Assembly: GCA_022823465.1 (NCBI GenBank)
Contig: JAJEHX010000038.1
Coordinates: 1 to 64,000 of the forward strand
Direction: 5' to 3'
Origin: Candidatus Latescibacterota bacterium
Lineage (GTDB): Bacteria; JAAXHH01
Length of the DNA: 64,000 bases
Shown here: one piece after another, positions 47,763 to 54,112 of the stretch
Layout of the letters: every line of letters starts with the position of its first letter
How positions within the stretch are numbered: position 1 is the stretch's first letter
Program-made: the position numbers and the translations under genes
The notes under the pieces: model-generated
Told to the model about the DNA's origin: nothing
The model's database searches: none
The model's input: the letters and a program-made list of their open reading frames with translations, nothing else

Positions 47763-48257
47763 ATGGAAAGAATTTCCTGGGACGAGTACTTCCTCCGCAT
47801 CGCTTACGCCGTTTCCGCCCGTTCGAACTGTATTCGCAGGCATATCGGCGCCGTGATCGTGAACGACAAGATCATCACCAGCACAGGATACAACGGCACT
47901 CCCATGGGCATTCCCAACTGCGCCGATGGCGGATGCAAACGATGCAATTCGGACGGGCCGTCCGGGGCAAATCTCGACGAATGCGTCTGCATACACGCCG
48001 AGGAAAACGCCATCGTCTTCGCCGCGCGGCACGGTTCGTCCACGAGCGGCGCGACGCTTTACACGACGAACAAACCCTGCCTGGGCTGTCTTAAAAAGTC
48101 CATCCAGGCGGGCATTCGCCGGGTTGTATACGCGGAGCAGTACGCCTATACCAGGTCTGTAGAAGAAGTGTACAACTGGCTGGTGGAGGAATCCGGTATC
48201 GAGATGGTCGAACTGAGGTTGGACGAGCTTCCGGAATCCGTTGCGCATACCGCCTGA
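47763..48257 (+). CDS. dCMP deaminase family protein (ComEB-like)
   Basis: Zinc-dependent deoxycytidylate deaminase making dUMP for thymidylate synthesis. The 164 residues begin RISWDEYFLRIAYAVSARS, with the zinc/proton-shuttle motif HAE at 78-80 and PCLGC with Cys106 and Cys109. Additional Cys residues in CADGGCKRCN could bind a second zinc, as in dCMP deaminases. AAGGAG precedes ATG by 6 bases. Confidence 0.93.
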   Translation: MERISWDEYFLRIAYAVSARSNCIRRHIGAVIVNDKIITSTGYNGTPMGIPNCADGGCKRCNSDGPSGANLDECVCIHAEENAIVFAARHGSSTSGATLYTTNKPCLGCLKKSIQAGIRRVVYAEQYAYTRSVEEVYNWLVEESGIEMVELRLDELPESVAHTA

Positions 48258-48262
48258 AGCGG

Positions 48263-49090
48263 GTGAGATTCTGCTTGACGCGTGATCCGAAAGCCCGGAA
48301 ATTACGCGGCGAATCCGCTTATCTGTATTGTACCCCGGCTACGGGTGCCGCATTGCATACCAGCGACCGCATAACGCAATCGGACTTCGTGTATCTCAGG
48401 CTGCAGGGCCCGGGGCAGGTGGGCATGTCGTTTTCCGATGCGTATCCCGACTATCATCCACAGGATCGCGTGGGGTTTGTTTCCCCCCGGCTGGAAGACG
48501 GAATTTACGGGTTGAGCGCCGCCGTTCTGGGTCTGGCGACCGGGTTCTATGACCGTCTCCGGTCGAAAGGCGACGTATTCTTCGACTATCCCCTGCATCA
48601 TGCTTTCATAGGGGCGCAGGGGGCGCGGGTACACACACGAAGCGGGGACCTGCAACTGTCCATCGGGGAGATGGGAGGCGCCTGGGGCTGGTTGGACGTC
48701 TGGCCGGAGACCAATTGGCATCTCTGCCCTGCGACTCCAGTAAGCATGCTCGAAGCAGTATTTCGTCACCAGGTCAACCGGGTATTCTGGCCAGCCTCGT
48801 TCATGCCGGACAAGGTGGATGCGCCGCTTTCGCATTATGCCCGGCAATTGCTAGACGCCCGGCTGAAATCCGTCTGGTATTACGACGGTGAGGATGGGGA
48901 CGTGGAAGTCCGGGCCGCCGGGGCCGCGGCAGACGTGATCAGGGAGAGCCTGGAACGTCTGCCCTCAGGCGGCACAGGAAACCGCCACGCGTTGGACCGC
49001 ACGGCCGGACAACGGATCGATAACCGATTTAAAGCAGTGGAACCTGAAGCGTTTCTTGAAGATATGTCGGCCTGCTTCACTGATGGATGA
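48263..49090 (+). CDS. Unrecognised protein
   Basis: 275-residue protein starting at GTG 48263, 5 bases after the dCMP deaminase stop, so probably co-transcribed. I do not recognise the family. It appears soluble, without signal peptide or membrane helix. Aromatic- and Gly-rich segments (GEMGGAWGWLDVWPETNW, FFDYPLHHAFIG) and regular hydrophobic spacing look like a genuine globular protein, and the codon use matches its neighbours. The N-terminal start has no strong ribosome site. Confidence 0.7.
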   Translation: MRFCLTRDPKARKLRGESAYLYCTPATGAALHTSDRITQSDFVYLRLQGPGQVGMSFSDAYPDYHPQDRVGFVSPRLEDGIYGLSAAVLGLATGFYDRLRSKGDVFFDYPLHHAFIGAQGARVHTRSGDLQLSIGEMGGAWGWLDVWPETNWHLCPATPVSMLEAVFRHQVNRVFWPASFMPDKVDAPLSHYARQLLDARLKSVWYYDGEDGDVEVRAAGAAADVIRESLERLPSGGTGNRHALDRTAGQRIDNRFKAVEPEAFLEDMSACFTDG

Positions 49091-49189
49091 AAGGTGAAGC
49101 CTGGTCGTAATAGCGTTCGAACGAACCACGAAAGGCCTGCCATGTTGTCCTGCACGGCCGGCCGAGATGCAAGAAAGGAGCAGTGACTC

Positions 49190-50590
49190 ATGGTGGACAA
49201 ATCCTTCCTGTTCGACGATGACGCCATGCGCGACTTCATCGTAAACGGCTACCATGTGATCAAGGTGGATAAGCCGGTCGCGCTGCACGATGACATTTAT
49301 GAGAAAACGAAGACGATCATCGACGAAGACGGGAATCCGGGAAACAACCTGTTGCCTCGCGTGCCCGAGATCCAACAGGTCTACGACGATCCCTCGGTTC
49401 AAGGCGCGCTGACGAGTCTGCTCGGACCGGACTACGTCATGCACGCCCACCGCCACCCGCACGTGAATCCGGCGAACAGCCGGGGAGGCAACTGGCACAA
49501 GGACAGCTACTGGGGTTACACCAAGGTGCGGGATCACCATCCGCGCTGGATCATGGCAATGTACTATCCCCAGGACACCCCGGTTGAAATCGGACCGACG
49601 GGGGTAATACCGGGCAGCCATTATATCGAGTCCCGAGAAGAGACCGTCGGCGGGAACGGGTCGGTCCCCGATGGTTTTCCCGCAAGCGGCGAGGCCGGCA
49701 CTGTTACGATTATACATTTCGACCTGTGGCACCGGGCGTTTCCCAATCAGACGGACAAGGTCCGTTACATGATGAAGTTCCAGTTCACGAGAATGACGGA
49801 ACCAGACCGGCCCTACTGGAACAGGCAGCGCGACGATATCGACCTCGGCGACCTGTCGGATCATCCCCGGAGCGCCATGTGGCGAAACACGTGGCACTGG
49901 CTCGCCGGAAACGGGTCGGCCGGGAGCGGGCAGGCAGACGCGGAACACGTCGAGGCGCTCGCCGGAGACCTGACCCATGCACTCGAAGAGAAGCGCCTGC
50001 ACGCGGCCTATACCCTGGCGGAGTGCGGAGAATCCGCCCTTTCCCATCTCCTTGAAGCGCTCCAGCACGAAAATGACGAAGTCCGGCGCGATGCGTGTTA
50101 CGGGATCAGCGCGCTGGGTCCCGCGGCCGTCGAACCGCTGGTTTCCCTGCTCGGACACGGGAACGAACGCGTCCGGGGATACGCGGTCTACGCCCTTGGA
50201 GACATCCGGCACCACAGCCCGTCGGTAGCAGAGCACCTGGCGGGTCTTACGGACGACCCGTCGCCCTTCGTCCGTCAGAACGCGGCCGATGCCCTGGGCC
50301 AGATCAAGCTGGCCGCGGATTCGACCGTCCCCGCGCTGATCGGTTTGATGAAGGACGAGGATGAGCAGGTGCGGTCCAGGACCGCCTACGCGCTGGCCCG
50401 GTTCGGAGACGAGGCCCAGGCGGCCATCCAGGATCTCGCGGACGCGTGTTACGATGAAAACAGGTACGTGCAGGGCCATGCCGCCGTCGCCCTCGAACAG
50501 ATCGGCACGCCGGAAGCCCTGCGCACGCTGCTGCACTGGCTGCAGGCCTCGCGGTGGTGCCCCCTGACGACGGCGAAGAGCACGTATTAG
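49190..50590 (+). CDS. PhyH-type 2OG-Fe(II) dioxygenase fused to HEAT/PBS-lyase repeats
   Basis: A 466-residue two-part protein; AAAGGAG precedes ATG 49190. Residues 1-240 are a phytanoyl-CoA-dioxygenase-like domain with His103-x-Asp105 (NWHKDSYW), distal His181 (LWHRAFP) and Arg192 for 2-oxoglutarate. Residues about 255-455 are HEAT-like repeats of roughly 31 residues with the pattern VRxxAAxALGxI (VRRDACYGISALG, VRGYAVYALGDI, VRQNAADALGQI, VRSRTAYALARFG). The repeats may recruit a protein substrate or partner. Such a fusion is not one I know as standard. Confidence 0.88.
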   Translation: MVDKSFLFDDDAMRDFIVNGYHVIKVDKPVALHDDIYEKTKTIIDEDGNPGNNLLPRVPEIQQVYDDPSVQGALTSLLGPDYVMHAHRHPHVNPANSRGGNWHKDSYWGYTKVRDHHPRWIMAMYYPQDTPVEIGPTGVIPGSHYIESREETVGGNGSVPDGFPASGEAGTVTIIHFDLWHRAFPNQTDKVRYMMKFQFTRMTEPDRPYWNRQRDDIDLGDLSDHPRSAMWRNTWHWLAGNGSAGSGQADAEHVEALAGDLTHALEEKRLHAAYTLAECGESALSHLLEALQHENDEVRRDACYGISALGPAAVEPLVSLLGHGNERVRGYAVYALGDIRHHSPSVAEHLAGLTDDPSPFVRQNAADALGQIKLAADSTVPALIGLMKDEDEQVRSRTAYALARFGDEAQAAIQDLADACYDENRYVQGHAAVALEQIGTPEALRTLLHWLQASRWCPLTTAKSTY

Positions 50591-50667: not shown

Positions 50668-52638
50668 CTACCAGTCGTGCATCATGTGACCCTGCCCAGG
50701 ATAGAACAGGGCATCCGCGATGAAGGACAACACGATGCCGGTCGTATATCCAAGCAGCATGCCCAGGAAGAACCGCTGGCCCGTTCGGTAGGCGCCGGTC
50801 CCGATCTTCAGCAGGATGTATTTGGCGAGCCAGGCGAGGAAGACGGACAGGATCGAGTCTCGGATATTGCTGGCGAAGCAGATGGCGAACCCCACCGGGG
50901 CCAGGGGCCACCAGACCAGCCAGTGTCTGAGTTTGAGCAGGATCAGGAAGATCACCGCGCCCGCCGCCATGAACCAGGGCTCGTTCTGCCCCAGGGAAAG
51001 CGGGTTCTTCATCCAGGTTACGATTTCTTCGTAGTAGAAAGTGTTGAGGTTGGTGAACGCGCCCCCGCCGAAATTGTACGCTCCGATCTCATATCCCGCC
51101 TGTATCGTATAGGCAACAGCCGTGACCATGCTGACCAGGAAGGTGACGGCAAGCACGAGCAGCAGCCCCTTCTTCCGCGGCCAGAACCCATCCGTCAGGC
51201 GATCGGCCAGCACGACCGATCCCATCCCCAGTCCGCGCCAGTTCCGCGCGTAGGCGCTCGCCAGGCCCAGCGACGTCAGACTCGACCTGGAAATGTTGCC
51301 GGATCCAATGGTAAGAACGGAGATCTGGTGCGCGTTCACGGGCAGGTCGAGGAATACCACCCCTGTTTCCGCGATGACCTTCGTCGTGCCGAAGTAAAGG
51401 ATGAACAGGAAGGCCAGGAACACCGCCATCACCGGAAGCGACAGGCCGGACTGGTACAGCCAGGCGCAGATGAAGGCGGATCCCAACAGAAACCCGATCA
51501 CGGCGGTCCTGTAGGAAATGAGTTCCCTGGAATCGTCCAGACCGGCATCCCGCCCCGCCGCTTTCCTCAATACCCCCGCCAGGTGCCGCCTGGCCGCCCA
51601 GAGACTGTAGCCCACATACACGAGGAACCCGCCGAAAAACTGTGCGTTGACACCGCCGCTGCCGCCCGGGCCTCCACCTTCCGTGTTAAGGCCGATAAGA
51701 GTTAATGTTCCTACTTCGAGAATACCCAGCATGAAGAAGACCCAGATGCTCAGCAGGATGTCGACGTTGATGAAGTAGCCGAAGCAGAGCATGTAGGGGC
51801 TGATGCGCAGGGGGATGGAGGGGAACATGGGGCTCAACTGAAGAGGCGTTTCAAAGAAGGTGCCGACGGGCAGTTGCGGCACGATATGGGCGAAGGACAC
51901 GATATTCCAGAGTGCGACGGCCAGCGCGAGGCCGAACCCGATCTGGAAGAGGCGGTCGTAGACCAGCTTCGGCCAGCGTCCAGGCGACTGGTCGCCGGCG
52001 ATGAGCTCGAGGGGGACCTGTACCAGGGGAAAGGTCAACCGCTCGTACTCCACCCACTGCTTCCTGAATATCGTCGCCACGCAGGCGCCGACGACGAAAA
52101 TGGCCACAAAGAAGCTCATCCACCAGGCGACAGGGATGATCCAGGGAGACCAGGGTATGGTCCCGCCCGGGGGAAGGCCTTCGTAAAACCAGCCCATGGC
52201 GTTGTTCTGGTTGCTCGCCACGAGCCATTCCGGCAGAAAAGGATGGAAGAGCTCCACCCACTGGTTTTCCGGCTGGGCGAAGTAGAAGGGCGTCGATATG
52301 ATGGTCAGGAAGTACGATATGAAGGCCTTGCCCGGAATGAGGCTCGAAATGAGCAGTATGCAGAAGATCAGCGCCAGTTCCCTGCCTGTGAAGGCGGCGC
52401 GCTGAGAGATACCTCGGGCAAAGGGGTTGTACACGAAGGTTACGAGCAGGAACAGGGCCAGTGCGGATATGGGCAGGTGGGCCACCGACATGCGGGACGT
52501 GTGCAGGATATAGGTCCCGTAGGTCACCCAGATATTGAGGATGATGGCCAGGACCAGGGCCGTGGCCAGGGACCGCGACGTAATCACCGAGGTCGGCGTG
52601 GGTGCCTTCTGCGGCGTATGCGTGGTTGTGTCAGTCAA
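50668..52638 (-). CDS. Large polytopic membrane protein, DUF6785/DUF6784-like
   Basis: A 656-residue protein with about 14 hydrophobic helices, resembling DUF6785/DUF6784 proteins that recall oligopeptide transporters. The start is TTG 52638, with no clear ribosome site; a later start is possible. Recognisable stretches are GKAFISYFLTIISTPFYFA, FRKQWVEYERLTFPLVQVP and FADGFWPRKKG-like RLTDGFWPRKKG. The function is unknown; transport of peptides or sulfated compounds is only a guess from the sulfatase next door. Confidence 0.75.
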   Translation of the reverse strand: MTDTTTHTPQKAPTPTSVITSRSLATALVLAIILNIWVTYGTYILHTSRMSVAHLPISALALFLLVTFVYNPFARGISQRAAFTGRELALIFCILLISSLIPGKAFISYFLTIISTPFYFAQPENQWVELFHPFLPEWLVASNQNNAMGWFYEGLPPGGTIPWSPWIIPVAWWMSFFVAIFVVGACVATIFRKQWVEYERLTFPLVQVPLELIAGDQSPGRWPKLVYDRLFQIGFGLALAVALWNIVSFAHIVPQLPVGTFFETPLQLSPMFPSIPLRISPYMLCFGYFINVDILLSIWVFFMLGILEVGTLTLIGLNTEGGGPGGSGGVNAQFFGGFLVYVGYSLWAARRHLAGVLRKAAGRDAGLDDSRELISYRTAVIGFLLGSAFICAWLYQSGLSLPVMAVFLAFLFILYFGTTKVIAETGVVFLDLPVNAHQISVLTIGSGNISRSSLTSLGLASAYARNWRGLGMGSVVLADRLTDGFWPRKKGLLLVLAVTFLVSMVTAVAYTIQAGYEIGAYNFGGGAFTNLNTFYYEEIVTWMKNPLSLGQNEPWFMAAGAVIFLILLKLRHWLVWWPLAPVGFAICFASNIRDSILSVFLAWLAKYILLKIGTGAYRTGQRFFLGMLLGYTTGIVLSFIADALFYPGQGHMMHDW

Positions 52639-52729: not shown

Positions 52730-54112
52730 TCAGGAAGACTGCCGTTCCTGCCATTCGACCTCCATGGGATCGGGTATGGCATAGGGTTTGACGCGTTGTT
52801 CGTGCAGCCATTCCGACAGGTAATGATCCATTCTGTGCAGGTTTTCCGGCTGATCTTCCGCCAGGTTCCTCGTCTGGTACGGATCGTTTCGCATATCGTA
52901 CAGGGCCACCGGGTCGAACCGGTAGCCGAAGTCGTCGTAAGTCCTGATCATGAGATGATCGGCCGTCCGCACCGCCCGCTGCAGCGTGTACAGGCCGTGA
53001 CCCCAGACCAGGTAGTCGTGCAGGCGGCAGTTCCCCGTGGCGAGTCCCTCCGCGAAGGAACGGCCGTCGTAGTATTCGGGCACTTCGTCGCCCGCCAGGT
53101 CGATCAGGGTGGCGCTGAAGTCCACGTTGTACAGCAGATCGCCGCAGGAGGATCCGGGCTTCGTAACCCCCGGCCACTTGATGACCAGCGGAATCCGGTG
53201 TATGCATTCGTCGGCGCAGACGTGGTCGCCGTAGATGCCGTGCTCCCCCATGGCTTCACCGTGATCGGCCGAAATGATGACCGCCGTGTCGTCCAGGTCG
53301 CCCAGGGCGTCCAGTACCTGCTGCACGTGGTGGTCGGTGTACCGGATTTCCGCGTCATAACCGGTCACCATGTGATGCAGATCGTGGGTATCCCGGATGG
53401 CGTCGGGCATGTTCGGCGTGGGGCTGGACCGGTCCTGGGGAAAGAGATGGGACGCGGTAAACCACCCGCTTATGTCCTGGTGGCCGCCTATCGCATCGTT
53501 GTCCGGCCAGTCTGCCGCCGCCGGATGGACCGCCATGCGGTCGAACCAGTCGCGGGGCGCTTCGTAAACCCGGTGCGGGTCCCAGTAGTTGATGTACAGG
53601 AAGTAATCGTCGCGATCGCCGTTCGCGGCGATCCAGCGCAGTACGGCCTCGTTGACTTCGTCCGCCGTCTCCGATCCCGTCTTCAGATTGGGCGAATGGA
53701 ACTCCGACCAGCCCAGGCCGAACCAGGTCGCGCAGTGCCGGGCAGGAAAATTGGAGAAGCAGACGGTATCGTAGCCATGCTGGCGCAGCCTTCGCTGGAC
53801 CAACTGGTTCCGCTCGTCGGGACCGCCGTATCGCTGTTCGAGGATCTGCAGCTTCGAAGCGGGGCCGCCGTGGGTCACCACTCCGTTGTTGATCCCGAAA
53901 CGGCCTGTGATCCAGCCGTGCCTGGAGGGCATGCAGGGGGAGTCCGCGCAGTAGTACCGGTCGAACCGCATCCCCTGCGCGGCGATTTCATCTATGGCGG
54001 GCGAGGTGGGTCGGCCATATCCATAGCAACCCAGGTGGTCGGGCCTCAGACTGTCGATGTCGAAATAGACGATGCGCAAGGAGGAATACCGGTATCCTGG
54101 GTATAAAGACAA
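52730..54112 (-). CDS. Sulfatase (arylsulfatase-type, formylglycine-dependent)
   Basis: Hydrolyses sulfate esters. The 460 residues have the metal motif YFDIDSLRPDHLGCYGY, the formylglycine signature Cys60-Met-Pro-Ser-Arg64 followed by TGRF, and IISADHGEAMGEHG. TTG 54112 is 3 bases after the upstream gene's stop. TTG 54079, giving a typical MRIVYFDID start, is equally possible. No signal peptide is visible, so it may be cytoplasmic. The Cys-type active site needs a formylglycine-generating enzyme, not seen here. Confidence 0.9.
   Translation of the reverse strand: MSLYPGYRYSSLRIVYFDIDSLRPDHLGCYGYGRPTSPAIDEIAAQGMRFDRYYCADSPCMPSRHGWITGRFGINNGVVTHGGPASKLQILEQRYGGPDERNQLVQRRLRQHGYDTVCFSNFPARHCATWFGLGWSEFHSPNLKTGSETADEVNEAVLRWIAANGDRDDYFLYINYWDPHRVYEAPRDWFDRMAVHPAAADWPDNDAIGGHQDISGWFTASHLFPQDRSSPTPNMPDAIRDTHDLHHMVTGYDAEIRYTDHHVQQVLDALGDLDDTAVIISADHGEAMGEHGIYGDHVCADECIHRIPLVIKWPGVTKPGSSCGDLLYNVDFSATLIDLAGDEVPEYYDGRSFAEGLATGNCRLHDYLVWGHGLYTLQRAVRTADHLMIRTYDDFGYRFDPVALYDMRNDPYQTRNLAEDQPENLHRMDHYLSEWLHEQRVKPYAIPDPMEVEWQERQSS

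Follow-up and report, generated by a model that had tools for sequence, protein, structure and literature searches.

A 466-aa protein which combines a PhyH oxygenase domain with a HEAT-repeat alpha-solenoid is encoded on the forward strand at positions 49190..50590 of the window, i.e. the whole analysed stretch of 64,000 nucleotides from a contig of a Candidatus Latescibacterota bacterium. By every feature tested it is both a PhyH enzyme and a HEAT protein, and it is uncharacterised. The explanation that we prefer, with about even confidence, is that it would work as an Fe(II)/2-oxoglutarate PhyH oxygenase on a small polar metabolite, the solenoid being a fixed part of the enzyme and not a docking arm.

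Domain architecture and predicted structure

The gene is an open frame preceded by a ribosome-binding-like AAAGGAG (49174..49180, forward strand), read directly in the sequence, and its product has the order PhyH followed by HEAT. The oxygenase core (residues 57-192; 49358..49765, forward strand) matches the Pfam family PhyH (PF05721) with 57.1 bits against a cut-off of 22, and the solenoid region (residues about 251-453; 49940..50548, forward strand) matches HEAT_2 (PF13646) with 185.8 bits against a cut-off of 27.7, six HEAT units being assignable from their anchor motifs. Both domains were detected at E 1e-5 in 26 of the 27 aligned relatives. The fusion is full length in all 16 genomes of the window's phylum, which cover five of five genera, and this rules out a frameshift or an assembly artefact as its origin.

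The AlphaFold2 model of the fusion (pLDDT 86, pTM 0.88) contains both the PhyH and the alpha-solenoid folds, and the pTM value favours a definite placement of the two domains relative to each other in the predicted chain, with the C-terminal tail modelled at low confidence (pLDDT about 34-55). According to Foldseek, the PhyH half resembles ThoJ (6zyk) and SptF (7eyt) with a probability of 1.00, corresponding to the double-stranded beta-helix fold, and the solenoid half resembles alphaRep proteins, so that the two halves match separate solved structures; among the 50 Foldseek matches listed, none was an oxygenase-solenoid chain by its description. The best match by sequence among solved structures is ThoJ as well (E 1.8e-4, PDB). 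Pfam, AlphaFold2 and Foldseek agree with the sequence-only reading of this stretch, which had described a PhyH dioxygenase with about six HEAT repeats in one chain: the domain search and the structure prediction that it had proposed both recovered the two parts, and the frameshift that it had named as an alternative is at odds with the full-length copies across the phylum.

Conserved residues and the place of the solenoid

Conservation was computed on 29 fusion sequences sharing less than 80% identity. The H103-K-D105 motif (HxD; 49496..49504, forward strand), predicted to provide the first two iron ligands, is invariant in these sequences and in the 27 relatives. Equally invariant are H181, the predicted distal iron ligand, and R192, the predicted 2-oxoglutarate anchor located 11 residues further on (49730..49765, forward strand), both roles being assigned by analogy with EctD and other PhyH enzymes. 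The remaining invariant positions of this half include H87, R88, H91, N93 and the Y125/P127-Q128-D129 core stretch, as well as N49, G51, N52 and N53 of the family-specific GNPGNNLLP motif (residues 48-56; 49331..49357, forward strand), in which P56 is invariant too and L55 is conserved at 97%; in the form GNxGNNxLP this motif is the N-terminal hallmark of the family. The invariance of the HxD...H...R set across 29 diverged sequences is as expected for selection on catalysis. It also speaks against a PhyH fold that has lost catalysis or has a regulatory role, sensing 2-oxoglutarate, oxygen or a metabolite; we consider this highly improbable even though none of the PhyH-HEAT proteins has a known activity.

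Of the solenoid residues, E266, Y274 and Y426 do not vary in the same 29 sequences, R425 is conserved at 97% and Y304 at 93%, and the Asp/Arg ladder of the HEAT fold is represented by the invariant D389, R362 and R395. Six repeats and a structural Asp/Arg ladder are common to the fusion, to HEAT proteins of the PBS-lyase type (PF13646) and to the artificial alphaRep proteins. The alphaRep design randomises defined repeat positions, whereas at these positions the fusion has conserved Tyr, Glu and Arg residues, in addition to a fixed C-terminal tail. Assigned from the alphaRep sequences matched and from the library design, the randomised positions have a mean conservation of 2.42 bits compared with 2.53 bits at the other solenoid positions. 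Conservation is weak in the linker 241-252 (1.12) and highest in the block of the last 13 residues (3.05). This tail (residues 454-466, SRWCPLTTAKSTY; 50549..50587, forward strand) carries an RWC-x-x-T signature with W456, C457 and T460 invariant and R455 at 97%, found at the very C-terminal end of almost every full-length relative. No published report was found of these family hallmarks, namely GNxGNNxLP, the invariant solenoid Tyr/Glu residues and the C-terminal RWC-x-x-T.

From the repeats, the sequence-only reading had proposed a protein or a large complex as the target or docking site of the oxygenase. No support for this was found, and the positions that are variable in a generic binder are conserved here (E266, Y274, Y304, R425, Y426). 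A tail that is kept across phyla with different gene contexts is not what one would expect of a free docking arm; given the conservation of its groove positions and of the tail, and the confident model of the whole chain, the solenoid most likely serves as an integral scaffold or lid. Protein docking is possible but not favoured.

Distribution and ancestry

Outside the window's phylum, the full-length fusion was found in 79 of the 85 genomes of a second phylum, probably Poribacteria judging by its PhyH load, individual genomes having as many as 13 strong matches. The 43 genomes sampled from outside the order yielded a single match, which came from this second phylum, and a search of plasmids gave no match. 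The closest whole-chain relatives share 88-92% identity within the genus and 62-66% within the family, and those with names come from Candidatus Latescibacterota, records labelled Gemmatimonadetes, Handelsmanbacteria, Paenibacillus cremeus and Inquilinus limosus. In the tree, the fusion from the window lies inside a supported clade of Latescibacterota-type sequences, which looks vertically inherited, and on these sequence comparisons the fusion is real and old. One locus of the tree (L068), whose record bears the title Mycobacterium sp. KBS0706, clusters closely with that of Inquilinus limosus, and the record is probably a misnamed or contaminated assembly.

It had been considered at the outset that the fusion might turn out to be very common with a known role. 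It is indeed common in two phyla, but neither a description nor a role of a PhyH-HEAT fusion was found in the open-licence literature. Poribacteria genomes carry PhyH genes in very large numbers, most of them without a known role (PMC3909097), and the window genome (G000, in which the window contig is C54) resembles these expanded sets in possessing very many PhyH genes; the text of that paper does not mention HEAT (PMC3909097). In its 3.86 Mb, G000 has 113 matches to PhyH together with 15 genes for DUF6785 membrane proteins, a double expansion that is remarkable in itself. On its contig C9 there is a third, very divergent PhyH-HEAT fusion of 671 aa (L008:793-2808 and L086:5168-7183), which lacks the RWC-x-x-T tail and has a DECDVCEGNG stretch.

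Gene neighbourhoods in the window's lineage

As noticed from the sequence alone, the fusion gene sits behind an unrecognised protein and a dCMP deaminase. The former is an orphan gene directly upstream (48263..49090, forward strand; true start probably near codon 30) with no Pfam or NCBIfam match above the cut-off and a poor predicted model (pLDDT 48). Its homologues are present in 15 of the 16 phylum genomes; they immediately precede the fusion in three genera (the window's genus, G013 and G015) and lie elsewhere in G012; in two members of the genus, G001 and G011, the gene contains an internal TGA. Judging by this gene order, the orphan and the fusion are a true conserved gene pair, the orphan being the sole conserved neighbour in the window's lineage.

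The dCMP/cytidine deaminase-family gene (47763..48257, forward strand) matches PF00383 with 83.2 bits, with the ComEB model remaining below its cut-off, and an ORF of deaminase size occupies the same place in L037. It was rejected as a partner, being seen beside the orphan-fusion pair within the genus only, although the contigs of G013 and G015 break off before this could be judged. Downstream, on the opposite strand, there are a DUF6785/DUF6784 membrane protein gene (50668-52638) and a sulfatase gene (52730-54112). The DUF6785 gene was also discarded as a functional partner and is likely incidental, having 15 genomic copies and being absent beside the fusion in G013; nor do reciprocal best matches link the fusion-adjacent copies of the two phyla. 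Of 110 genes neighbouring relatives, three encode DUF6785 proteins and three sulfatases. Around the fusion in the window's own clade there is no sugar context.

Gene neighbourhoods of relatives elsewhere

In L079, a solute-binding protein and two sugar-type ABC permeases precede the fusion, and L076 and L077 have a three-gene layout before the fusion which matches this importer. In both of the latter, tandem paralogous PhyH-HEAT genes 66-67 bases apart follow the importer-like trio (L076:5954-8840; L077:4977-7895). The fusion also comes after two ABC permeases in L066 (Inquilinus), where a GntR-family regulator is a further neighbour, and after a PL8 lyase (chondroitin lyase) in L065 (Paenibacillus). 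Other relatives come after a GFO_IDH_MocA oxidoreductase and a CBM9 protein (L083), an aldo/keto reductase and an FAA hydrolase (L087) or an FGGY sugar kinase (L091), are flanked by a Zn-alcohol dehydrogenase and UbiD (L080) or are followed by amidohydrolases (L078, L095), and in L067 the gene of an MR/MLE enolase-type enzyme precedes the fusion and overlaps it by 4 bases.

Neighbour enrichment was evaluated for 19 further relatives' loci, with the ABC-importer clade left out, against 20 random control regions. The commonest neighbours in this sample are other PhyH genes (8/110), no sugar family is strongly enriched over the controls and no pathway dominates. Small-molecule catabolism as the context of the relatives is therefore supported as a tendency of the gene neighbourhoods, and the link to sugars is a lead.

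These contexts bear on the possibility of a protein-modifying oxygenase, in which the solenoid would grip a protein or peptide substrate and present it to the PhyH site. HEAT solenoids do usually bind proteins, a conserved partner might account for the conserved solenoid residues, and ThoJ, the closest solved PhyH relative by sequence, is a tailoring enzyme of a ribosomally made peptide. However, no partner gene is conserved across clades, the orphan being found in the window's order; the contexts of the relatives point to small-molecule, often carbohydrate, catabolism in several independent lineages, which also weakens the protein target suggested earlier; and a genome with as many as 13 strong matches is more readily explained by a diversity of metabolites than by a single target protein. 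We consider such a substrate improbable.

Alternatively, the solenoid could be an assembly module that makes homo-oligomers or tethers the oxygenase to a transporter or a downstream enzyme, taking no part in the active site. HEAT domains commonly oligomerise or scaffold, and it is possible that the tandem paralogues of L076 and L077 form hetero-oligomers. The RWC-x-x-T signature and the invariant solenoid residues nevertheless stay the same despite different neighbours, so the partners would have to be shared, and we regard this arrangement as unlikely.

Comparison with characterised enzymes

The fusion has in common with the PhyH family (PF05721), including EctD and PHYHD1/FJS, the double-stranded beta-helix, the HxD...H triad and the Arg located 11 residues past the distal His, but it shows no close sequence relationship to characterised members and has a HEAT domain, which is not described for EctD or PHYHD1/FJS. 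EctD is a PhyH enzyme whose substrate is the free small molecule ectoine (PMC2871039). The identity of the fusion as EctD was ruled out by the curated models, as there was no ectoine hydroxylase model among the NCBIfam matches at E <= 1 and EctD appeared in the PDB search at E 0.074 only. PHYHD1 and FJS, the latter encoded by an 858 bp ORF (about 285 aa), demethylate free 2'-O-methylated nucleosides, and the same activity was also found in a Poribacteria PhyH protein (PMC12709175). By analogy, 2'-O-methyl nucleoside demethylation of the PHYHD1/FJS type is possible for the fusion. As for sugars, sulfoquinovose dioxygenase was considered as an analogy for their oxidation, and a search for kanamycin B dioxygenase as a precedent for a PhyH enzyme acting on a sugar gave no match.

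An oxygenase and HEAT repeats are also combined in one chain in deoxyhypusine hydroxylase, which acts on eIF5A. Its di-iron site is held by the HEAT repeats themselves, whereas the predicted iron residues of the fusion are in a separate PhyH domain. Paired His-Glu di-iron motifs are absent from the solenoid of the fusion, which has a single HE dipeptide (H293-E294), and the match between the fusion and deoxyhypusine hydroxylase (4d4z) is a weak generic HEAT match (E 0.0011).

Proposed role and significance

Under the preferred explanation of a metabolite oxygenase with a built-in solenoid, the chemistry would be the ordinary Fe(II)/2-oxoglutarate type, as assumed from the PhyH family and the catalytic residues: oxygen and 2-oxoglutarate would give an iron-oxo species that hydroxylates the substrate or demethylates it via hydroxylation. 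The substrate would be a small metabolite, probably derived from a carbohydrate or of comparable polarity. The solenoid may pack against the oxygenase domain with its conserved face, the RWC-x-x-T tail forming a lid close to the active site or above it. That the paralogues have diverged to different substrates is suggested by their number and contexts, and in the window's lineage the orphan upstream protein may act in the same pathway. Against this explanation, the neighbourhoods vary and no single pathway recurs.

More tentatively, and with some doubt on our part, the fusion may represent a distinct family in which the alpha-solenoid folds back on the oxygenase and the Cys-containing RWC-x-x-T tail closes the active site, a modular lid re-used by different lineages of uncultured bacteria for many polar metabolites.

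In uncultured bacteria, sponge-associated ones among them, the PhyH oxygenases have multiplied enormously, and hardly any has been assigned a substrate. A subfamily that combines an unvarying solenoid with a signature at its C-terminus, and whose genes often adjoin catabolic ones, offers a defined and testable entry point into this expansion, and if it is true that the solenoid forms part of the active site, this would be an unusual way of building an oxygenase pocket.
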